A stretch of DNA of 64,000 nt from positions 7,068,001-7,132,000 of the forward strand of contig NZ_CP042997.1 in NCBI RefSeq assembly GCF_008087625.1, read 5' to 3'. This DNA is from Aquisphaera giovannonii (GTDB taxonomy: Bacteria; Planctomycetota; Planctomycetia; Isosphaerales; Isosphaeraceae). The notes beneath the pieces were generated by a model. It was not told the DNA's origin. It did not search any database and saw nothing but the letters and a program-made list of their open reading frames with translations. The translations under genes were made by a program, and so were the position numbers. Below are positions 16,695 through 31,908 of the stretch, in pieces. How positions within the stretch are numbered: the stretch's first letter is position 1; every line of letters starts with the position of its first letter.

Positions 16695-16938
16695 CTGAGT
16701 GACTGTCCCACAAGTGCTGTCCCCCAGGCAGCGTCTCGTCGCGACCAGTCTCCGGCAGGAGGATCGTCCGGATCCGCTTCCCACCTGACAGAGGGGGGAT
16801 ACAGGCGGGTGAATCCGATCGCCTCGGCCCGGATCGATACACCTCCTCGGACTCCCCCTTCGTAGGGGGGAGGACCGGGATCGGCTCGCCTTCTTGAGGG
16901 GGATTGCAGGAAGCGTTGCTTATGGGACAGACCCTCAG
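16695..16938. mobile_element. Small non-autonomous element with inverted ends
   Basis: The ends 16695-16714 and 16919-16938 are inverted copies (17 of 20 bases the same; core CTGTCCCAYAAG). The 244-base element contains no gene, but the interior carries the PPYEGGVRGG repeat. It fills the gap between the convergent RoxA-like and PKS genes, and its right end includes the PKS stop codon. The ends resemble terminal repeats of some DDE insertion sequences (inference). Confidence 0.5.
16771..16890. repeat. Dispersed repeat with CTCCCCC hairpin (copy 2)
   Basis: This is the second copy of the repeat at 6083-6203, in the same orientation. Shared blocks are CCGCTTCCCACCTG, CGGCCCGGA and GACTCCCCCTTCGTA, the last forming a hairpin at about 16852-16872. 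By eye roughly two thirds of the bases agree. Confidence 0.65.
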
Positions 16939-18026
16939 TCGAGGATCGCCGCCTCGACGGCCAGGCCCGGCCCGAAGGCCAGCGCGACGCAAGGCCCCGG
17001 CGCACCCGCGCGGGCCAGCCGATCCAGGATGAAGAGGATGGTGGGCGAGGACATGTTGCCGTGCTCCGCGAGGACGCGCTGGGAGACGCCCAGCGCGTCG
17101 TGGCCGAGGCCGAGCGCCTCGGCGACCGCGGAGAGGATCCTCGGGCCGCCGGGATGGACGGCCCACGAGCCGACCGAGGCCAGGTCCAGGCCGTGCCTCG
17201 CCAGCCACGACTCGAGCCAGGGCCGGAGGTGCGTGCCGATCAGGTCCGGCACCCGGTTGGAGAGCGTCATCTGGAAGCCGTGGTCGCCGATCCGCCAGGA
17301 CATGGCGTCCTCCGAATCCGCGATCAGCGTCGATCCCGACGCGACCAGGCGGAGGCGTCGCGACGCACGAGCAACGCCCGCGGACGCGGCCTCCGGCACG
17401 GCCACGACCGCCGCGGCGCCGTCGGCGAACAGGGAATTGGAGACGATCCGCTCCGCGTCCCAGCCGTACTGGTGGTGGAGGCTGCAGAGCTCCAGGGCGC
17501 AGAGCAGCACGCACGCGTCGGGGTCGGCCCGCAGGAAGGCGTCGGCGACCCGGAGGCCGTTGAGCGCCCCGTGGCAGCCCATGAACCCGACGTGAGTCCT
17601 CGCCGCCTCCGCGCGGAGCGGCAAATGACCGATGAGCGTGACGTCGAGCCCGGGCGCGTGGAAGCCGCTGCAGGAGACGGTGATCAGGTGGGTCACCCGC
17701 CCCGGTGGGATGCCGGCCGCGTCCAAGGCGGCCTTCGCGGCGAGGAGCCCCAGCGGCCCGGCCTCCGCCTCGTAACGCCGCATCCGCTCCAGCGTCGAGG
17801 GGGCCGCCTCGCCGTAGAACGTCTGCCGTCCTTCGAGCGGGCCGTCGGACCGGTCCAGCACCACGCAGCCCCGGCCCTCGACGCCGGCCCGCCGGTAGAG
17901 CGCCGCGAAGAGCCGCTCCTGCGACGGGCTCTCGCAGGCGTACTTCCGGGCGATGAGTGCCGCGTCCTCCTGGCTGATCCGATGCGGCGGCAGCGCCGTG
18001 CCGATGCCCGCGATGACGGTGCTCAT
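16935..18026 (-). CDS. Type III polyketide synthase
   Basis: The 363-residue ketosynthase of the chalcone/stilbene synthase family should condense malonyl-CoA onto a starter, with no carrier protein. The catalytic triad is visible: C151 in GFMGCHGALNG, H291 in WAVHPGGPRIL and N324 in EHGNMSSPT. Its start is 3 bases after the stop of an FAD oxidoreductase, itself overlapping a methyltransferase, so the three form one operon. The order and functions resemble srsABC-type phenolic-lipid/quinone clusters, suggesting an alkylresorcinol or pyrone later hydroxylated and methylated. The starter is unknown. The stop codon lies in a repeat end. Confidence 0.92.
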   Translation of the reverse strand: MSTVIAGIGTALPPHRISQEDAALIARKYACESPSQERLFAALYRRAGVEGRGCVVLDRSDGPLEGRQTFYGEAAPSTLERMRRYEAEAGPLGLLAAKAALDAAGIPPGRVTHLITVSCSGFHAPGLDVTLIGHLPLRAEAARTHVGFMGCHGALNGLRVADAFLRADPDACVLLCALELCSLHHQYGWDAERIVSNSLFADGAAAVVAVPEAASAGVARASRRLRLVASGSTLIADSEDAMSWRIGDHGFQMTLSNRVPDLIGTHLRPWLESWLARHGLDLASVGSWAVHPGGPRILSAVAEALGLGHDALGVSQRVLAEHGNMSSPTILFILDRLARAGAPGPCVALAFGPGLAVEAAILD

Positions 18027-18029
18027 GTT

Positions 18030-19202
18030 TCAGCTCGATTGCCCCAGGAGGGATGTGCCGTCAAGACGGCGGGTCGTGGCGCCGGCGAGCGCGGGGAAGC
18101 GGCCCGCCGCGGCGAAGGCGGCCCGGGCGATCCAGGGCCGTCGCAGCACGGCGGCGACCCCCCGGCAGAGCCGCTGCCTTTGCAAGACGCATGCTTCATG
18201 GGCGCGCCGCCATTCCCGCGCCAGCCCCGGCTCCCAGCGTGCGGCCGCCCGTTCGGACAGCGGCACGACCTCGGCCGCGGCCCGGATCGCCCAGGCCATG
18301 CCCTCGCCCGTGAACGGCTCGACGTATCCCGCCGCATCGCCGAGCACGAAGAGTCGCTCCGCGGCCATCGGACGGGTCCGCCGGGAGAGCGGCAATGTCC
18401 CCTGCCAATCGGCCCGCTCCAGGCCCTCCGCGGCCCGGAAGCCCGCCTGCCCCAGGATTTCTCGCGCGGCCGCGGCGGGCCCGCCGGCCGAGCGGAGCAG
18501 CCCGGCGTCGAGGGCCGCCGCCACGTTGAGCGACCCGTCCTCCAGGCGTACGAGGCCGACATAGCCGCGGCGGCCGACGGCCATGGCGATGGTGCCCTCG
18601 CGGGGGAAGCCGTGATCGCCCGGCAGGCGGCAGCCCGCGCCGATGCGGCTGCCCGGCGAGGCCACGCTCCGGACGCCCTCGTCGCGCTCGAATCGAGGCA
18701 GGCCGAGGCCCGTCGCCACGAGCACGACGCTCGCCCTCGCGACGACCTGGCGGGGGCCCTCGGCCAGCGTGATCCGCCGGAGTCCGCCCTCGGCGGGGCC
18801 GACCGTCGCCTCGATGCCGTCCCGGAACCAGGCCCCCGCGGCCACGGCCTCGCCGGCGAGCGCGGAATCGAGCGCGGAGCGGGACACGGCGGTCCCGCCG
18901 GGCAGCGCCAGGGAGATCGAGCGGCCCTCGAGGCCGATCTCCAGCCGATCCAGGGCGGGGCCGCCGAGCCCGCGGAGTGCCGGCCCGAGCCCCGCGGCCT
19001 CGAGTGCCCCCACCGCGTCCCGGTTGAGGCACGCCCCGCAGACCTTCCGCCTCGGGAACGGCTTTCGGTCCACGAGGAGCGTCCGCAGCCCTCGGAGCGC
19101 CAGCCCGCGGGCCGCGACGGAACCCGCCGGTCCGGCCCCCAGGACGATGGCGTCCCACGGGCGGCGTGCCAGGTCCTCGATGTCCCGAGGCGTCGTGCTC
19201 AT
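18030..19202 (-). CDS. FAD-dependent oxidoreductase (geranylgeranyl reductase-like)
   Basis: The 390-residue flavoprotein has the dinucleotide loop LGAGPAGSVAA (22-27), the RKVCGACL segment found in geranylgeranyl reductase and related aromatic hydroxylases, and the second FAD motif GDAAGYVEPFTGEGM. In this operon it probably oxidises or hydroxylates the polyketide ring. The ATG at 19202 overlaps the TGA of the methyltransferase (ATGA), so translation is likely coupled; a longer open frame upstream is ignored. The PKS starts 3 bases after its stop. Confidence 0.88.
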   Translation of the reverse strand: MSTTPRDIEDLARRPWDAIVLGAGPAGSVAARGLALRGLRTLLVDRKPFPRRKVCGACLNRDAVGALEAAGLGPALRGLGGPALDRLEIGLEGRSISLALPGGTAVSRSALDSALAGEAVAAGAWFRDGIEATVGPAEGGLRRITLAEGPRQVVARASVVLVATGLGLPRFERDEGVRSVASPGSRIGAGCRLPGDHGFPREGTIAMAVGRRGYVGLVRLEDGSLNVAAALDAGLLRSAGGPAAAAREILGQAGFRAAEGLERADWQGTLPLSRRTRPMAAERLFVLGDAAGYVEPFTGEGMAWAIRAAAEVVPLSERAAARWEPGLAREWRRAHEACVLQRQRLCRGVAAVLRRPWIARAAFAAAGRFPALAGATTRRLDGTSLLGQSS

Positions 19203-20011
19203 CGCGTGCGGGGCCTCCAGCTCAGGAGGAAGCGTCGCGGCCAGTGTCGCGTGAGGCGGACCGGCCCTCCCGCCGCCCGCTCCGCCAGGCCCAGCGCCTC
19301 GGCGGCCGTGAAGGCCGCGGCCACGGAGGCCGGGCCGTCGGCGTGGACGATCGGGGAACGGGAGAGGAGCCGGCATCCGGCGACGGCCAATCCGTAGCCG
19401 AGCCGGCTCCGGATGAGGTCATCCACCAGCACGAGGTCCAGGGCCGCATCGTCCATCCGGCGGAGCAGCGCGACCGCATCCGCCTCGTCGAGGTGATGCA
19501 GGAAGAGCGAGCAGGTCAGGACGTTGTAGTCCCCCGGCAGCGGGCCGGCGAGGGCATCCCGGGCGAAATAACGGCACGACGATCCCCGCCCGGCCGCGCG
19601 GGACGCGGCCAGCCCGACGGCCGTCTCGCTGATGTCGCAGCCGTCGAACCGGGCGTCCAGGCCGGCGGCCCGCGCCTTCTTCTCCAGGGCGAGCGGCAGG
19701 GATCCGCCGCCCGTCGCCACGTCGAGGACCCGGAGCGGCCCGGCGGCCGAGGGCCTGGACGACGCCAGGCCCTCGATCTGCCGCCAGAGGATGGAGGCCG
19801 TGCGGCTGATCGCGTTGATCCGCCTCAGGCCCTCCAGCGCCCGGGCGTGCTCGGCCGCGGGCAGGCCCGGCTGGTCCATCAGCTCGGGCTCTCGGCGACG
19901 ACATCGCAGGTCGGGCAGAAGTGACGTCAAGGGAAGCATCCGGGAGGGCATTCTCGGCTTCGGCCCGGCCCCCGCGGCCTCGCCCGCCGTCGCGGTGGAG
20001 GCGGGAAGCAA
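19199..20011 (-). CDS. SAM-dependent methyltransferase
   Basis: The up-to-270-residue protein carries SAM motif I VLDVATGGGSLP, an acidic motif II (FDGCDISETAVG) and LTCSLFLHHLDEAD, placing it among class I small-molecule methyltransferases. It is the first gene of the methyltransferase-oxidoreductase-PKS operon and likely methylates the phenolic product. The start is uncertain: ATGs at 20011, 19951 and 19939 are all in frame, and a later one at 19879 begins MDQPGLP. Homologous proteins usually begin shortly before the RRREPELMD segment, which favours the inner ones. Confidence 0.85.
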   Translation of the reverse strand: MLPASTATAGEAAGAGPKPRMPSRMLPLTSLLPDLRCRRREPELMDQPGLPAAEHARALEGLRRINAISRTASILWRQIEGLASSRPSAAGPLRVLDVATGGGSLPLALEKKARAAGLDARFDGCDISETAVGLAASRAAGRGSSCRYFARDALAGPLPGDYNVLTCSLFLHHLDEADAVALLRRMDDAALDLVLVDDLIRSRLGYGLAVAGCRLLSRSPIVHADGPASVAAAFTAAEALGLAERAAGGPVRLTRHWPRRFLLSWRPRTR

Positions 20012-21349: not shown

Positions 21350-22663
21350 TCAGCCGCCGGTTTCAGGCCGCTCGAAGTAGCGGCGGCCCCGCAGGGATTC
21401 CGGGAGGCAGGTCATCTCCTCGCGCGCGGCGGGGTCGTCGTGGACGTAGCGGTAGCCCTGCCCGTACCCCACGTCCTTCATGAGGGAGGTCACCGCGTTC
21501 CGGAGGTGCAGGGGGACCGGCTCGCGCGCCGTGGTGGAGGCGTCGGCCGCGGCGGCGGCATAGGCCTTCTTGACGGCGCCCGACTTGGGGGCGGTCGCCA
21601 GGTAGATCGTCGCCTGCGAGAGCGGATAGAGCCCCTCCGGCATGCCGATCTGGTGGACAATCTGCGCGGCGGCGGCGGCCTGCACCATCGCCTGCGGGTC
21701 GGCGAGGCCGATGTCCTCCGAGGCCAGGATGCAGAGCCGACGCGCGATGAAGAGCGGATCGGCCCCGCCTTCGATGAGCCGGGCCAGCCAGTACAGAGCC
21801 GCGTCGGCGTCCGAGTTCCGCAGGCTCTTGATCAGCGCCGAGGCGAGGTTGTAATGGTTTTCGCCCTGGCGGTCGTAGGCGTAGCGGGCCTGGCCGAGCG
21901 CCTCGGCGAGGGCCTGCTCGGTCACGACCCGCGAGCCGTCCGCCGCCGGGGGCGTGGCCAGCACGGCCTGCTCGAGCGTCGTCAGGGCGACGCGGGCGTC
22001 CCCCTCGGCCCAGCCGGCCAGCTTCCGCACCACCTCGGCATCGATCCGCGGCGCGAGGCCCGCAAGCCCACGCTCGGGATGCGTCAGGGCGCGGTCCAGG
22101 ATCGCGGCGATGTCGTCGCGGGAGAGCGGCTCGAGGACGGCCACGCGGCACCGGGAGAGCAGGGCGGCGTTCACCTCGAAGGACGGGTTCTCGGTCGTCG
22201 CGCCGATGAGCGTGACGGTCCCCTGCTCGACGGCGTGCAGGAGGGCATCCTGCTGGGCCTTGTTGAAGCGGTGGATCTCGTCGATGAAGAGCAGGACGCG
22301 GGTGCCCCGGCGGCTCAGCCGCTTCGCCTCGTCGATGGCCGCCCGGACCTCCTTGACGCCGGAGAAGACCGCGGAGAGGGGGAGGAACCGGAGGCCCGCC
22401 GCGGCGGCGACCAGGCGGGCGAGCGTCGTCTTCCCCGTCCCCGGCGGGCCCCAGAGGATCATCGACGGGATCCGCCCCTCGGCGCGGAGGGCCCGGCCCA
22501 GGAGCGAGCCCGGGCCGATCACGCGGGACTGGCCCGCGTACTCCGCCAGCGTCCGGGGCCGCATCCGCTCCGCGAGCGGGGCATTCGGGTCATCGGCCGG
22601 CTCCGGATCGCGGCCCTCGTCCTCGAACTCGTCGAAGAGCCCCCTGGTTGCATCCCGATTCAT
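21350..22663 (-). CDS. rarA: Replication-associated recombination protein A (AAA+ ATPase)
   Basis: RarA/MgsA is the bacterial WRNIP1 relative that acts at stalled replication forks, loading at SSB-bound ends. The 437-residue chain has MRPRTLAEYAGQ, Walker A GPPGTGKTT (72-80), Walker B FIDEIHRF (about 127-134), sensor 1 GATTENPSFEV and the C-terminal tetramerisation domain (KSLRNSDADAALYWLARLIEGG, SEDIGLADP). The start at 22663 is chosen by family alignment; the open frame upstream has no support. It is divergent from the beta-helix gene. Confidence 0.95.
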   Translation of the reverse strand: MNRDATRGLFDEFEDEGRDPEPADDPNAPLAERMRPRTLAEYAGQSRVIGPGSLLGRALRAEGRIPSMILWGPPGTGKTTLARLVAAAAGLRFLPLSAVFSGVKEVRAAIDEAKRLSRRGTRVLLFIDEIHRFNKAQQDALLHAVEQGTVTLIGATTENPSFEVNAALLSRCRVAVLEPLSRDDIAAILDRALTHPERGLAGLAPRIDAEVVRKLAGWAEGDARVALTTLEQAVLATPPAADGSRVVTEQALAEALGQARYAYDRQGENHYNLASALIKSLRNSDADAALYWLARLIEGGADPLFIARRLCILASEDIGLADPQAMVQAAAAAQIVHQIGMPEGLYPLSQATIYLATAPKSGAVKKAYAAAAADASTTAREPVPLHLRNAVTSLMKDVGYGQGYRYVHDDPAAREEMTCLPESLRGRRYFERPETGG

Positions 22664-22890
22664 CGCGGTGGCCCTCCCGACGTCAACTCCGGGGACGGTG
22701 ATGATGCGTACAGAGCTTACCATACTTCGGGTCGCCGCGGGCGGGCCGCCCGCGCCCGCGTCGCCGTGTGGTATGCTCCCTGATGCGCCCACGCCGGGTC
22801 GTTGACGCGTGGCGGGATGGACGCAGCGACGCGGCCGGGGCGCCGTGCGGAGCGGGGAGGTTCGGTCGCACAACGACAGGGGAGGTCACG

Positions 22891-25761
22891 ATGCGGCTCT
22901 TCGCGGTTGCCGTCACGGTGGCATGCTCGCTCATCCCCGCGGTGGTCGAGGCGCAGTCCTCGCCGAGGCAGCGAAGCGCGAGGGCCCCGTCGATCCGTTG
23001 GATCGGCCAGGACGGGCACGACTACGTGGCGCCGAACAACCGCCGCGAGCCGAGCGGCGTGCAGGACGTGCACCTCGTCCTGGAGGGGCTGGACCCGGCC
23101 CGCGAGGTCACCCACGTCGACGTGAAGGCGGAATCGCCCTGGAATGAGTGGGAGTACGACCGGCCCAACTTCTCGTGGAAGCTCGAGCTGAAGCGAGCCA
23201 GGGGGGCCCGGTCGGCCGACCTCTTCCTCGAGCCCGGGGACACCGAGGCGGCCCGGACCTATCACTTCCTGGTCGAGGACGACGCCGGAAACAAGTGGGA
23301 GTTCGACGTCCGCGGCCGGAAGGTCGATCGCGGCCTGCGGATGCCGGGGCTCGCCATGCAGGCCAAATGGCTGGGCCAGGACCGGCACGACCGGGTCGCG
23401 AGCGGCCCGTCCGTCGGCCCGGACGGCATCCAGGACGCCCGGATCCGCCTCTCGGGCATCTCCGCGAAGATCGCCGTGAAGTCCATCCGGATCGAGGGGC
23501 AGGGGGGGACGAAATGGCAGTCCGGCACCAATCCGGACCTCCTGCCGAACGCCGAGTTCTGGGCCGACCCGAAGACGACGGGCGCGGGCGACCTTCACTT
23601 CCAGCCCACGCGCGACGTGAAGGGCCAGAAGCTCAAGGTGGTCGTCCGCTACGACAACGACACGGAAGACTCGGCGACGGTCCTCGCCGGCCGCCTCGAT
23701 CCGAAGCTGCGGATGCCCGAGACGCCCCTGCCTCGGCTGACGACCGCGGCGGCGAAGGCCGAATGGCTGGGCCAGGACGGCCAGGGCCCCGGGGGCCCCG
23801 GCGACGTCCACGTCCGCCTCTCCGGCATGCCGCGGCCGTCCTCGCTCGCCGAGGCGGTGCTGACCGACGGCGTGACCAGCACCTGGGCCTTCCGCCAGGG
23901 CCCGGCCGGGAGGGTTCAGGACGCCGACGGCAACGTCTTCGCGCCCCTCGTCGTCCGCCCGGCGGCGGATGACTCCGCGCTGGACCTCTTCTTCGCCCCC
24001 GACCGCGACGAGGCGAAGGCCGGCTTCACGTTCCGGTTCGCGGACACCGCCGGACGGATGACGGTCGCCCGCTTCGAGGGCGGCGCGTGCGATCCCGGCC
24101 GCAGGGCACCCCGTCCGGCCGGGACGCGCGCGACGGCCCAGCCCGGCGACGACCTGAACCGGCTGGCGGACCAGAATGGGACGCTGATCCTGTCGCCCGG
24201 CACGTATCGGCTCGCGAGCCCCCTCGTCCTCGAGAATCCGGTGACCATCGACGGCGGCGGCAAGGCGACGCTCGTCTTCGCCCAGGGGGCCGGCGAGCCG
24301 CCCTGGACGGCGGCCATCAAGATCCACGCGGGCAACACCACGCTCAACGGCTTCGCCGTCCGGTTCGTGGGGAAGGTCCGCTGGGACGGCGCGGTCAGCT
24401 ACGGGCCGGCGGTCATCGGCACGACGGACAACAAGGACCGGCCCCGGGGCGGCCCGCGGGTGAACATCAGCCTCACCCGGCTGGACCTGGAATCCCCGGC
24501 CGCCGAGGATCCGTCGAAGTGGGCCGAGGCCATCCGGCTCGTCCGGCTGACGAACGCCGCGGGCGGCATGATCGCGGGCAATGTGCTCCGGGGCGGGACG
24601 ATCGAGTTCTTCGACGGCCCCTGGCAGATCCTCAACAACGACTTCCGCGGCACGCCCGCCGGCACGATCTCGCACGGGATCTTCTCGGCCCACGGGACCC
24701 ACGACCTGGTCGTGAAGGGCAACCGGGCGAAGCCCGTCGAGCCGGCCGGCAAGACCTGGCGGTTCCTGGTTCTGACCCATCGCGGCGTCCGGGACATCGT
24801 GGAGGAGAACACGATCGAGGGCCTGGGAGCCCGGCCGGACGACGCGGCCCCCTGGGTGAACGACCCCGAGATCGTCCTCACCGAGGCCTACCACGTCGCC
24901 TACGAGGGGCGGATCCAGGCCCTCTCGGCCGACGGCCTCGTCCTGCGGACGCACCGCCGCCAGGGGAATCCGGTGGGCAGCGGCGACGCGGTCTCGCTCC
25001 TGGACGGCCCCTCGGCGGGCGAGTTCCGCAGGATCGCCCAGGTGATCGACGCCGAGACGTACCTGCTCGAGGCGCCCATCCCGAAGGGGACCGACGCCGT
25101 GTCGGTCGCGCGAGGCTTCGTGGATACGAGCTTCCTCAAGAACCGGATCGCCATGAGCCCCGGGCGGCGGGCCGACGGGTTCACCTCGGACGGCCTGATC
25201 CTCCCGGGCAACCACTTCGGCACCCGCGTCGAGGGCAACCACATCTCGGGCGGCGGGCTCGCCATGAAGCTGGCCGCCTACCCGAGCGAGACGCCCGTCG
25301 CCTGGGGCTGGTCGCACGCCCCCTTCCTGGGCGGGGTCGTCGACGGGAACATCCTCGAGGACGCGATCGCCGGGGCACGGCTGACCGTGGACCACTCCGC
25401 GCGGTACGTGAAGTCGAACCGGGGCCGGGTGTACATGTCGATCCGGCTGGATAACAACGTCGTCCGCTGGACCGACGCGTTCCTGAAGTGGCGTTCGTCC
25501 TCCGGCGAGAAGACGCCGCTCGCGGGGCTGGTCCTCGGCGAGCTCCCCTCGCACGACCCGGCCGAGCTGGCGGTCCGCGCCTCGTGCAACCGCCTCGAGG
25601 CCCCGCCCGGCCCGGAGGCCGGCGCGAGCCTGGTCGTGGACGCGGCCGAGTACAACGGGCAGAAGCTGCACCGCCGAAGGTACTCACTCCCCGCGGCCCC
25701 GGGTGCGGCCCGGAGCTCCGCCACGACGGCCCCGCGGGCGGACTCCTCGGCGAGGCGGTGA
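22891..25761 (+). CDS. Secreted beta-helix protein with three WLGQDGHD modules
   Basis: The 956-residue product starts with a Sec signal (cleaved near VEA/Q22). Residues about 35-415 hold three related modules of 120-130 residues, each opening with W(I/L)GQDxxx (W37, W160, W292) and followed by a DVHxxLxG(L/I/M) strand. From about 421 the chain turns into a right-handed parallel beta-helix (ILSPGTYRLASPLVLENP, TIDGGG, then repeated GN and N-rich turns), as in polysaccharide lyases or surface adhesins. I know no name for the front module. It is probably extracellular. A GGGGAGGT site precedes the ATG, and a TG-extended -10 (TATGCT, 22772-22777) may drive it. Confidence 0.85.
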   Translation: MRLFAVAVTVACSLIPAVVEAQSSPRQRSARAPSIRWIGQDGHDYVAPNNRREPSGVQDVHLVLEGLDPAREVTHVDVKAESPWNEWEYDRPNFSWKLELKRARGARSADLFLEPGDTEAARTYHFLVEDDAGNKWEFDVRGRKVDRGLRMPGLAMQAKWLGQDRHDRVASGPSVGPDGIQDARIRLSGISAKIAVKSIRIEGQGGTKWQSGTNPDLLPNAEFWADPKTTGAGDLHFQPTRDVKGQKLKVVVRYDNDTEDSATVLAGRLDPKLRMPETPLPRLTTAAAKAEWLGQDGQGPGGPGDVHVRLSGMPRPSSLAEAVLTDGVTSTWAFRQGPAGRVQDADGNVFAPLVVRPAADDSALDLFFAPDRDEAKAGFTFRFADTAGRMTVARFEGGACDPGRRAPRPAGTRATAQPGDDLNRLADQNGTLILSPGTYRLASPLVLENPVTIDGGGKATLVFAQGAGEPPWTAAIKIHAGNTTLNGFAVRFVGKVRWDGAVSYGPAVIGTTDNKDRPRGGPRVNISLTRLDLESPAAEDPSKWAEAIRLVRLTNAAGGMIAGNVLRGGTIEFFDGPWQILNNDFRGTPAGTISHGIFSAHGTHDLVVKGNRAKPVEPAGKTWRFLVLTHRGVRDIVEENTIEGLGARPDDAAPWVNDPEIVLTEAYHVAYEGRIQALSADGLVLRTHRRQGNPVGSGDAVSLLDGPSAGEFRRIAQVIDAETYLLEAPIPKGTDAVSVARGFVDTSFLKNRIAMSPGRRADGFTSDGLILPGNHFGTRVEGNHISGGGLAMKLAAYPSETPVAWGWSHAPFLGGVVDGNILEDAIAGARLTVDHSARYVKSNRGRVYMSIRLDNNVVRWTDAFLKWRSSSGEKTPLAGLVLGELPSHDPAELAVRASCNRLEAPPGPEAGASLVVDAAEYNGQKLHRRRYSLPAAPGAARSSATTAPRADSSARR

Positions 25762-26176
25762 GAGGGCGCCCGCGATCGGGAGGGCCCTCTCGCCGCGCCC
25801 AAGGCTGCTGCATCTCCGGTTGCAGGAGCCTCGGGATGGGCGGCGTAACCCCGTCCCCGCAGTGGGCCTCTTTTGTAGAGTGCGTCAAGCGGCAGCGCGG
25901 ACGCGCCGGACCGCCTCGTCACCGCGACAAGGCTCATCCCTTTCACATGCGGGACCGCTTCTTTGATCGCCCCGCTGGTTCCTGGTGAAGAGGCGATCCG
26001 GTGCGTCCGCGCTGCCGCTTGACGCACCCTACAGAGGAAATCAAGAGATCCAGGAGGCCATCGCCAAAAATCTCTGCGGATCTGGAATCGAGGAGAGCGT
26101 GTGCGGGACCGTATGGGATGAAAGTTCCAGGATCCGTCTGCACCAATCCGACTCCTCGACCGGGAGGCAACCGACG
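25762..26176. other. Intergenic region, 415 bases, mostly a MITE
   Basis: Between the beta-helix gene and the next hypothetical gene the main content is the 160-base inverted-repeat element at 25874-26033. The remaining bases show no gene. Confidence 0.6.
25874..26033. mobile_element. MITE with 50-bp terminal inverted repeats
   Basis: The arms 25874-25923 and 25984-26033 are inverted copies with 46 of 50 bases identical; each outer end begins TGTAG(A/G)GTGCGTCAAGCGG. The 60-base centre has no gene. No clear target-site duplication was seen. GTAGGGTGCGT-type ends are known from miniature elements in several bacterial phyla, mobilised in trans by a full IS, which is absent here. Confidence 0.8.
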
Positions 26177-28906: not shown

Positions 28907-30238
28907 GTGTCGAAATCCGGCGTGGCGGGGCCCTCGGGGACGCGAGGGGCCTATCCCTGGGTCGTGCTCGGCCTGCTCTGGTTCTGCGGCTTCTTCAACT
29001 ACGCCGACCGCCAGGCGGTGAACTCGGTCTTCCCCATGCTGGCGAAGGAGTTCTCCCTCAGCGACATCCAGCTCGGCGTGATCGGCTCGGCGTTCATGAT
29101 CGTCTACGCCACGACGTCGCCCTTCGCGGGATACGTCGTGGACCGCGTCCGTCGGCGCATCCTGATCCCGGCGGGGCTCGCCTTCTGGAGCCTGATCTGC
29201 GCGGCGACGGGGCTGTCGAGCTCCTTCGCGCAGCTCGTCTTCTTCCGCGGCGCGGAGGGCCTGGGCGAGTCGTTCTACTTCCCAGCCTCGCTGTCGTTCC
29301 TGGCCGACTACCACGGCAGGGCGACTCGATCGAGGGCCCTCGGGATCCACCAGACGAGCGTGTATCTGGGCACGGCCGGCGGTGCGGCGCTCGCCGGAAA
29401 GCTCGCCGAGCACTACGGCTGGCGATCGCCGTTCTACGCCCTGGGCCTGGCCGGGCTGGTCTATGCCGTGATCCTCGGGTTCCTCCTGATCGAGCCCAAG
29501 CGGGGCCAGTCGGACGCGGCGAAGGGGCCGGGGGATGAGGACTTCGGGATCGACGAGCTGGAGGCGCTCCGGGCCCACGACCCGATCTCGGCGAAGGCGT
29601 CGCGGATCCTCGGGAATCCGGCCGCGCTGCTGCTGCTCTGCGTCTTCGTCGGGGCGAACTTCGTGGCGTCGGCCTTCCTGACCTGGCTGCCAACGTTCCT
29701 GTTCCGGAAGTTCACCATGGGGATCGCGGCGTCGTCGCTGACCTCGACCGTCTGGCCGCTCGCGAGCCTCTTCGGGGCGCTCCTGGGCGGGCTGCTCGCG
29801 GACCTGGCGGCGGCGCGGCGGCGGGGCGGGCGGATCCTGGTCCAGGCCCTCGGCCTGATCCTGGGCGCCCCGTTCGTGTTCGCGACCGGATGGACGGAAT
29901 CGCGGGGCCTCACGGTGGTCGCGATGGCGGCGGCGGGGCTCTGCAAGGGGATCTACGACGCCAACATCTTCGCCTCGCTCTTCGACGTGGTACGGCCGGA
30001 GGACCGCGGGACGGCGGCGGGGCTGATGAACTCGCTCGGCTGGGCGGGGGGCTTCCTGGCGCCGGTGGCGGTCGGGGCGGCCTCGAATTCGTTCGGGCTT
30101 GACGTGGCGATCGCCTCGACGGCTCTGGTCTACTTGCTGGTCGGAATGCTCGCGCTGGCCGCGGCGAAGGTCGCCGAGGCCGGCACCCCCTCCCGCGAGA
30201 CGGACATCCTCCCTCCTGACGAAAGGCCCGGCTCGTGA
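28907..30238 (+). CDS. MFS transporter
   Basis: The 443-residue inner-membrane protein has 12 predicted helices and the MFS signature after helix 2 (GYVVDRVRRRILIP), plus FNYADRQAVNSVFP in helix 1, typical of the anion/organic acid and spinster-like groups. It starts with GTG, supported by a strong AAGGAGG. Lying between a sialidase and a purine-type permease, it may import the released sugar acid (inference). Its stop overlaps the start of the next gene (GTGA). Confidence 0.85.
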   Translation: MSKSGVAGPSGTRGAYPWVVLGLLWFCGFFNYADRQAVNSVFPMLAKEFSLSDIQLGVIGSAFMIVYATTSPFAGYVVDRVRRRILIPAGLAFWSLICAATGLSSSFAQLVFFRGAEGLGESFYFPASLSFLADYHGRATRSRALGIHQTSVYLGTAGGAALAGKLAEHYGWRSPFYALGLAGLVYAVILGFLLIEPKRGQSDAAKGPGDEDFGIDELEALRAHDPISAKASRILGNPAALLLLCVFVGANFVASAFLTWLPTFLFRKFTMGIAASSLTSTVWPLASLFGALLGGLLADLAAARRRGGRILVQALGLILGAPFVFATGWTESRGLTVVAMAAAGLCKGIYDANIFASLFDVVRPEDRGTAAGLMNSLGWAGGFLAPVAVGAASNSFGLDVAIASTALVYLLVGMLALAAAKVAEAGTPSRETDILPPDERPGS

Positions 30239-31908
30239 GCTCTGTTCCGGAAGCGGAGGCGGGGGCATCGCCCCGCCGGGGGTGGTCCCGCGGGGGCGAC
30301 CTGAACGCGTTCTTCGGCCTGATGATCGACAACATCGGCGGCATGATCCTGATGACCAGCCTGCTGGTCGGCTTCGGGATGCCGCGCGACTTCGTGCTCT
30401 CGCGGATGATCCCTGGCACGGCGGTGGGGGTCCTCGTCGGCGACCTGATCTACACGGCCATGGCCTGGCGGATGGCCCGCAAGACCGGGCGCACCGACGT
30501 GACCGCGATGCCGCTGGGCCTGGACACGCCCAGCACCTTCGGCTCGGTCATCCTGATCATCGGCCCGTCGTACAACGCGGCCCTGGGCCGGGGCCTGGAC
30601 CCATCGGCCGCGGCGGAGCACGCCTGGTTCATCGGGCTGTCGATGCTGCTTGCCTCCGGGATCTTCAAGCTGGCCTGCGCGGCGGTGAGCGGCTGGGTCC
30701 GGGGCGCCGTCCCGAGGGCCGGGCTGCTCGGGTCGCTCGCGGCGATCGCGCTGGTGATCATCAGCTTCCTGCCGCTGCGGGACATCACGGCGCACCCGGT
30801 CGCGGGGCTCGTCTCGATGGCGATCATCCTGGCCACGCTCACCGCCCGCTGGAAGCTGCCGGGCCAGATCCCCGGCGCCCTCGCGGCCGTCGTGGCGGGC
30901 TGCGCGGTCTACTACGGGATGCACGTCGCGGGGCTGGGCCCGGGGCCCGGGGAAGGGGGGCCGGCGCCGTCGAGCCTCCTCCGCGTGGCCCTGCCGATGC
31001 CGCACGACGCCTGGTGGGCCTGGATCGGGCACGCCTGGCCCGAGGTCGTCGGCTACCTCCCGGTGGCGATCCCCCTGGCGCTGGCCACCGTGGTCGGCGG
31101 CATCGATTGCACCGAGAGCGCGGCGGCCGCCGGGGATGATTACCACACCGGGTCCGTCATCGCGGTCGAGGGGTTCGCCACGGTGGTCGCCGGCCTCTTC
31201 GGCGGCGTGATCCAGACGACGCCGTACATCGGCCACCCGGCGTACAAGGCGATGGGGGCGCGGTCGGGCTACACGCTGGCCACCGCGCTCTTCGTCGGCG
31301 CGGCGGGGATCTTCGGCTACTTCGACTGGATCTTCTTCCTGCTGCCCAGGACGGTGGTCTTCCCGATCCTGGTCTTCATCGGCCTGGAGATCACGGCGCA
31401 GTCGTTCCACGCCACGACGTATCGGCACTATCCCGCGGTCGGCCTCGCCTGCGTGCCGGCACTCGGATATCTGGCCATGATCACGATCAATAATCTCCTC
31501 TCCGACATGGGCAAGCCGTTCGGCGAGCTGCGCGCGGAGACGCAGGGGTGGATCGCCACCGTGACCATGCTCTCGGGCGGCTTCATCGTGACCTCGCTGC
31601 TCTGGGGGACTTTCCTGGCGCACCTCATCGACGCGAAGGTCCGGCCCGCGGTCGTCACCCTGGTCCTCGCGGCCGTCTGCGCCTGGTTCGGCGTCATCCA
31701 CTCGCCGCTGCCGTCGGGGGAGATCAACATGCCCGGCGCCGTGCTGGACAAGCTCCAGGCCGCGGGCAGGGCCGCCGCGTCCGCCCAGCAGACGCCCTAC
31801 CACTGGGCCGCGGCCTACCTCGCCATGGCGGCGACCGTCTGGCTGCTCGGCAAGTTCGGCCAGCCGCCGACGGCGGCGGAGCAGGGGGAGGAGCCGATCG
31901 CGATTTAG
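30235..31908 (+). CDS. NCS2-like permease
   Basis: The 557-residue protein has about 12-14 hydrophobic segments. TTPYIGHPAYKAMGARSGYT resembles the conserved helix of the nucleobase-cation symporter (AzgA/xanthine-uracil) group, and GLDTPSTFGSVILI the family half-helix. The substrate cannot be read. The GTG start overlaps the MFS stop by four bases, so it is translated with it. A second possible role is transport of an organic anion linked to the upstream sialidase. A short dispersed repeat follows the stop. Confidence 0.78.
   Translation: MSSVPEAEAGASPRRGWSRGGDLNAFFGLMIDNIGGMILMTSLLVGFGMPRDFVLSRMIPGTAVGVLVGDLIYTAMAWRMARKTGRTDVTAMPLGLDTPSTFGSVILIIGPSYNAALGRGLDPSAAAEHAWFIGLSMLLASGIFKLACAAVSGWVRGAVPRAGLLGSLAAIALVIISFLPLRDITAHPVAGLVSMAIILATLTARWKLPGQIPGALAAVVAGCAVYYGMHVAGLGPGPGEGGPAPSSLLRVALPMPHDAWWAWIGHAWPEVVGYLPVAIPLALATVVGGIDCTESAAAAGDDYHTGSVIAVEGFATVVAGLFGGVIQTTPYIGHPAYKAMGARSGYTLATALFVGAAGIFGYFDWIFFLLPRTVVFPILVFIGLEITAQSFHATTYRHYPAVGLACVPALGYLAMITINNLLSDMGKPFGELRAETQGWIATVTMLSGGFIVTSLLWGTFLAHLIDAKVRPAVVTLVLAAVCAWFGVIHSPLPSGEINMPGAVLDKLQAAGRAAASAQQTPYHWAAAYLAMAATVWLLGKFGQPPTAAEQGEEPIAI

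Follow-up and report, generated by a model that had tools for sequence, protein, structure and literature searches.

A repeated Ig-like module in front of a predicted beta-helix in Aquisphaera giovannonii and its distribution in the Isosphaeraceae

The window gene and its three modules

Which building blocks make up the 956-aa protein encoded by the open reading frame 22891-25761 (+) of the A. giovannonii window, and what might they do? By the window we mean the whole stretch of DNA that was analysed, 64,000 nucleotides in length. A preliminary description of the sequence had proposed that a signal peptide, three modules starting with W(I/L)GQD and a parallel beta-helix follow each other in this protein, and that the modules are not a named domain. 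The features of the gene used throughout this study are the following.

22891..22953 (+): probable signal peptide, aa 1-21, MRLFAVAVTVACSLIPAVVEA, read from the translation
22996..23346 (+): module M1, aa 36-152; it matches M2 and M3 above all shuffles, and its strands appear in the full-length model
23011..23067 (+): acidic loop of M1, D41 to D59 (DGHDYVAPNNRREPSGVQD); first, second and last Asp kept in 92%, 100% and 100% of M1 copies
23362..23721 (+): module M2, aa 158-277, for which the single-module prediction gave an Ig-like beta-sandwich
23380..23436 (+): acidic loop of M2, D164 to D182 (DRHDRVASGPSVGPDGIQD); first, second and last Asp kept in 77%, 97% and 97% of M2 copies
23758..24117 (+): module M3, aa 290-409, divergent, with a shortened acidic loop; profile score 95 bits
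24124..25707 (+): predicted right-handed parallel beta-helix, aa 412-939, of lyase/epimerase-like shape (residues 384-911 of the full-length model)

The N-terminal 380 residues hold the three modules and the C-terminal 530 the beta-helix; the stretch in front of them looks, as proposed, like a signal peptide. The modules start with RWIGQD at residue 36, KWLGQD at 159 and EWLGQD at 291, and the tryptophans of these starts (W37, W160 and W292) lie 123 and 132 residues apart, exactly as first described. A self-match of the three modules, which had been suggested as a check, was obtained. Smith-Waterman scores are 94 for M1-M2, 81 for M1-M3 and 59 for M2-M3 (z 13.1, 11.6 and 5.9), and none of 2000 shuffles reached any of them; windows taken from the beta-helix half as a control for module similarity gave a maximum of 42. 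An AlphaFold2 model of the full-length protein (pLDDT 87.6, pTM 0.84, 15 sequences) has the same strand order three times in succession, followed by the beta-helix. The three modules of the window protein are thus homologous. Against an iterated module profile, M1 scores 123 bits (copy L001 98-214; numbers with L denote loci).

A full module comprises about 118 residues and closes with a DPxLRMP-like end. The DVH/DAR strand and the LxG(L/I/M) motif noted in the preliminary description are present, but they do not mark the end of the module: according to the models and the alignment, both sit in its first third, in strand 2 and the turn after it. W3 and W52 are conserved in the module (here and below, single module positions are given in M2 numbering).

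Most module copies keep an acidic loop of the pattern QDGxD...DGxQD, which is lost from M3: little remains there of the loop that joins strands 1 and 2. D7, D10 and D25 of this loop are found in 88-100% of the C-terminal copies of longer proteins and in 100% of the S8 copies. Among the M3 copies, D10 is kept in 42% and D25 in 60%, and the loop columns in between are gapped in about 90%. M3 is nevertheless modelled with the same strand series, so that the loop is probably not required for the fold, and a role as metal- or ligand-binding site becomes plausible. The putative acidic site is not kept everywhere, since the NPCBM proteins of the Isosphaeraceae (L003, L047-L050) carry a long Pro/Ala-rich insert between strands 1 and 2 and have GQPN in place of GQD. 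The insert is absent from the homologues of these proteins in other families.

Predicted folds of the module and the beta-helix

The window protein has no match in Pfam or NCBIfam and no convincing match among the PDB sequences. When 60 diverse module copies were compared with Pfam, none matched significantly; weak matches were scattered, the best of them (E 0.0052) being confined to one copy. Module profiles retrieved nothing secure from the PDB sequences, and searches of phages and plasmids gave no match. The viral structure library yielded just beta-helix and Ig repeats and no match specific to the module, and the module motif was not found in the literature searched. The initial view that this is not a named domain is thus upheld: no known Pfam domain covers each module, and structure prediction returns the repeat.

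Modelled alone from an alignment of 51 module sequences, M2 is predicted by AlphaFold2 with a mean pLDDT of 94.9 and a pTM of 0.86. With its eight strands, the model falls into the Ig-like beta-sandwich class, defined as a two-sheet sandwich of 7-9 strands in Ig-like order. Foldseek found nothing better than E 7e-3 for the module model in the PDB. By VIA-align, domains 1-2 of the Sap S-layer protein of Bacillus anthracis (8rw9_F) come first with Z 7.2 over 82 aligned residues (rmsd 2.8), the following matches being one unit lower, although a Z below 8 may mean merely a common arrangement. The archaellum stator proteins FlaF/FlaG reach a Z of about 6 and many Ig-like domains 5-6; overall, the matches listed are overwhelmingly Ig, FnIII, filamin and similar sandwiches with Z 5-7. 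Sap is a surface protein that consists, like the window protein, of repeated domains, but it shares 15% identity with the module and no sequence profile match. According to these models, the module folds as an Ig-like sandwich to which no known structure is closely related.

Behind the modules, the full-length model forms the beta-helix that had been postulated, right-handed and parallel. VIA-align places this part (model residues 384-911) next to the mannuronan C5-epimerases AlgE6 (Z 29.0) and AlgE4 (28.4), followed by the RbmB lyase (27.5), phage TSP3 (27.4), NosD (26.6), the PfbA adhesin (25.9) and PL6 lyases at about 25 (Pedsa0632 25.2). The likeness to AlgE-type epimerases and PL6 lyases (5lw3, 2pyh, 7o84) lies in the right-handed beta-helix shape and extends over about 330 residues with Z 25-29, at an identity of 10-17%. 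Sequence profiles of the full protein matched no entry of the AlgE/PL6 lyase-epimerase type, and the aligned epimerase A-modules contain nothing that corresponds to the Ig-like modules. Among 15 sequences of about 40% identity, R463, D577, R596, E632, E637, E644, E772, W777, W779, K813 and R818 of the helix (model numbering) are invariant. The predicted shape is that of polysaccharide-acting enzymes and also that of adhesins; as the fold is common to adhesins and tailspikes (PfbA, TSP3), it does not imply catalysis.

Distribution, architectures and history of the module

The module is present in 44 of 45 Isosphaeraceae genomes, with 2 to 23 matches per positive genome; the sole genome without a match has a completeness of 68%. 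Assignment to the family follows the names of the matching records, among them Singulisphaera acidiphila DSM 18658, Singulisphaera sp. GP187 and Paludisphaera soli. A. giovannonii itself has eight copies in four genes, namely the window gene, its beta-helix paralogue of 1385 aa (L004), a gene for a subtilase with F5/8C (L002) and one for an NPCBM protein (L003). Outside the family, the profile matched 6 of 352 Planctomycetia genomes, a lower bound on its presence with 11 first-look candidates scored per genome. Four of these cases are clear, each with one module in an NPCBM protein of 570-594 aa that resembles L084 from a Pirellulales MAG. The beta-helix half was found in 44 of 45 Isosphaeraceae and in none of the 352 other Planctomycetia genomes, at most three first-look candidates being scored per genome. 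The module had been introduced as one of planctomycetes. This is correct for its occurrence in secreted planctomycete proteins, but not for planctomycetes in general, as it is centred on the Isosphaeraceae.

Several candidates were rejected. At class level, the weak matches G446 and G450 (E 4e-4) come from short, unrelated proteins whose C-terminus carries a metal-binding-like motif, and at phylum level G399/L057 (E 1.2e-4) is a repetitive protein matched by chance. Separately, a contig labelled Abditibacteriaceae (L070) encodes a complete orthologue that shares 42% identity with the window protein; it may be a mis-binned Isosphaeraceae contig or a case of transfer.

The iterated profile detected 162 copies in 53 ORFs of the set of loci to which it was applied, some of which overlap. 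A protein has 1-10 copies, and the domains that accompany them are beta-helices, subtilases, F5/8C, NPCBM and Big. Four types of architecture recur.

Window type: three modules and the helix
Long type: three modules, the helix and one to seven C-terminal modules
Protease type: a subtilase-type protein with one or two modules (L002, L079)
NPCBM type: a single module (L003, L084)

Within the protease type, L002 combines F5/8C with a subtilase, and L079 a subtilase-like protease with PKD/Big; L069 and L041 contain Big_13. In a few of the helix proteins (L014, L022, L024), only two N-terminal modules are seen. The 1970-aa protein L035 of S. acidiphila carries ten modules, seven of them in a C-terminal tandem, and the near-identical copies of this tandem, with branch lengths near zero, suggest a recent change in copy number. 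The module is thus mobile and repeat-forming. In NPCBM/NEW2 proteins of Planctomycetia, inside and outside the Isosphaeraceae, one copy lies upstream of the C-terminal NPCBM domain; the module itself is not NPCBM, and the window protein, unlike these proteins, has no NPCBM domain.

In long module proteins (L026, L036, L041, L074, L083), a basic N-terminal stretch with an LExRxLLS-like motif replaces the ordinary signal peptide, a start which we regard as characteristic of surface proteins in planctomycetes. No motif of the LExRxLLS type was named when L069 and L074 were scanned against NCBIfam.

The history of the repeat was approached with an unrooted tree of 89 modules; the small number of alignment columns leaves many of its forks unresolved. 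Three groups each come together on a single branch, namely the M3 copies (support 100/99), the NPCBM-linked copies (100/98) and the S8 copies (100/91). M2 copies also fall on one branch, with a weaker support of 82/15, and do so in 83% of bootstrap trees. Neither the M1 copies nor the C-terminal copies form one single branch. As M2 and M3 lie on separate branches, the simplest reading of the tree is that the triplication predates the radiation of the Isosphaeraceae. For the C-terminal arrays, the simplest reading is later growth in separate lineages, because of the near-identical copies in L035. The NPCBM protein with its single module is the sole form seen in other families and, in this unrooted tree, may represent the older context.

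In sum, the module represents a genuine domain family, hitherto undescribed, whose lineage signature is clear, while its fold and architecture are of known kinds.

Possible role and genomic neighbourhood

Our preferred reading, which we hold tentatively and at slightly less than an even chance, is that the Ig-like modules serve as an attachment and spacer arm that positions a polysaccharide-acting beta-helix, with the acidic loop as working site. The arm would keep the helix on the cell surface or on a polymer outside the cell. The putative site would belong to M1 and M2, with a metal, for instance calcium, most likely stabilising it, and M3, having lost the loop, would act as a rigid connector to the helix. 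The helix in turn would act on or bind a polysaccharide, probably in the matrix of the cell itself or of a neighbour. The loop Asp hardly vary among the M1, M2, C-terminal and S8 copies and have been lost specifically in M3, a pattern that argues for a functional loop rather than one needed for the fold. The company of the module, i.e., NPCBM (L003, L084), F5/8C with subtilase (L002), PKD/Big (L079) and Big_13 (L069, L041), consists of glycan- and surface-handling domains and supports the attachment arm. Against the loop as its site, the Asp could merely cap a turn. A wider proposal, in our opinion an improbable one, would make the module a lineage-specific, metal-dependent docking domain and the general attachment unit of the Isosphaeraceae. 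It would have been recruited from a single copy in an older NPCBM protein of planctomycetes and would later have entered beta-helix enzymes, subtilases and long repeat proteins, fixing them to a common polymer of the envelope or matrix.

The same observations can be read in a plainer way, with the module as a mere structural stalk unit, similar to Big or Rib repeats, that has no ligand and whose loop is a fold-stabilising turn. Tandem arrays vary in number between relatives and contain near-identical copies in L035, which a plain spacer fits equally well, and the fold matches are Ig-like stalk and S-layer domains. However, single copies inside subtilases and NPCBM proteins are no stalks, and M1, M2 and C-terminal copies show very little variation in the loop Asp, even though the M3 model reaches the fold in their absence; we therefore regard a pure stalk as rather unlikely. 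Less credit still goes to a carbohydrate-binding module that recognises a glycan directly, which the preliminary description had suggested as one option besides surface binding. It would explain the co-occurrence with NPCBM, F5/8C and the polysaccharide lyase/epimerase-like helix as well as the conserved W3, W52 and acidic residues, but no structural or sequence match to any CBM family stood out, and the conserved Trp lie in strands and may be core residues.

Least probable, and in our judgement very unlikely, is the view that the module belongs to a known Ig-like family, for example Rib/RibLong (PF08428, PF18957), and has diverged so far that current profiles miss it. Both are tandem Ig-like surface repeats with a similar Y-x-DG beta hairpin near the C-terminus. 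RibLong reached 25.9 bits, against a Pfam gathering score of 27, for the 1970-aa protein L035, and one module alignment (A1) gave a profile match to the R4 Rib domain with E 0.0011. With profile A5, on the other hand, E was 0.16 over 28 residues only, corresponding to a generic Y-x-DG hairpin; no single stretch of L035 passes alone, and 2 of 60 copies match RibLong, with a best E of 0.046. The similarity is confined to about 28-40 residues, whereas the module has about 118 residues with a distinct N-terminal strand and the acidic loop. When aligned, the kinship to Rib was reduced to a generic beta-hairpin and was rejected. A further alternative concerns the helix, which could be an adhesin or scaffold like PfbA, the whole protein then serving attachment. 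PfbA is a surface adhesin of the same helix fold (Z 25.9), and repeats ahead of a helix are typical of adhesins; the top structure matches, however, are epimerases, and the many charged and aromatic residues invariant in 15 sequences are as expected of an active groove. We doubt this alternative, about as much as we doubt the pure stalk.

The module and its helix partner occur in 44 of 45 Isosphaeraceae without Pfam or NCBIfam annotation and were not found in the literature searched. A module profile would label several copies in almost every genome of the family and would link proteases, NPCBM proteins and beta-helices, which probably share their place of action outside the cell. How these planctomycetes keep enzymes at the envelope or on polysaccharides is poorly known; if the acidic loop binds a ligand, it would offer a direct handle on this question.

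Two neighbours of the gene were followed in other genomes.

21353..22873 (-): rarA/mgsA-type AAA+ ATPase, divergent neighbour (Pfam MgsA_C 2.4e-59)
30235..31908 (+): hydrophobic permease-like protein, with 65-74% identical homologues in L071, L072, L076, L078 and L081

The divergent rarA-type gene also adjoins the orthologue in L072, L076 and L078 (S. acidiphila, Singulisphaera GP187 and the 71-10 MAG). In the Singulisphaera-type loci L071, L072 and L076, the permease-like frame starts 3-40 bp behind the orthologue frame, counting stop-to-stop frames. The permease-like protein has no NCBIfam or PDB match, and its residues 15-556 match no Pfam entry. The module gene and the permease-like gene of the window are separated by a BNR-repeat (sialidase-like) gene and an MFS transporter, and a sialidase-like homologue adjoins the orthologue in L078, too. 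This neighbourhood hints weakly that the protein takes part in glycan use or in matrix handling.

A short distance downstream of the gene, at 25869-26038, there is an element of about 170 bp, the 55-nt inverted arms of which are 89% complementary. Its core, GTGCGTCAAGCGGCAGCGCGGACGC, occurs 9 times in the genome at <=3 mismatches, compared with 0 for the reversed control, so that the element is a small dispersed repeat. Elsewhere in the window, at 16935-20011 (-), a chalcone/stilbene-synthase-like gene, with a weak DpgA match far below its cut-off, stands in a row with an FAD-dependent oxidoreductase and a methyltransferase-like gene, an arrangement that resembles a type III polyketide cluster.
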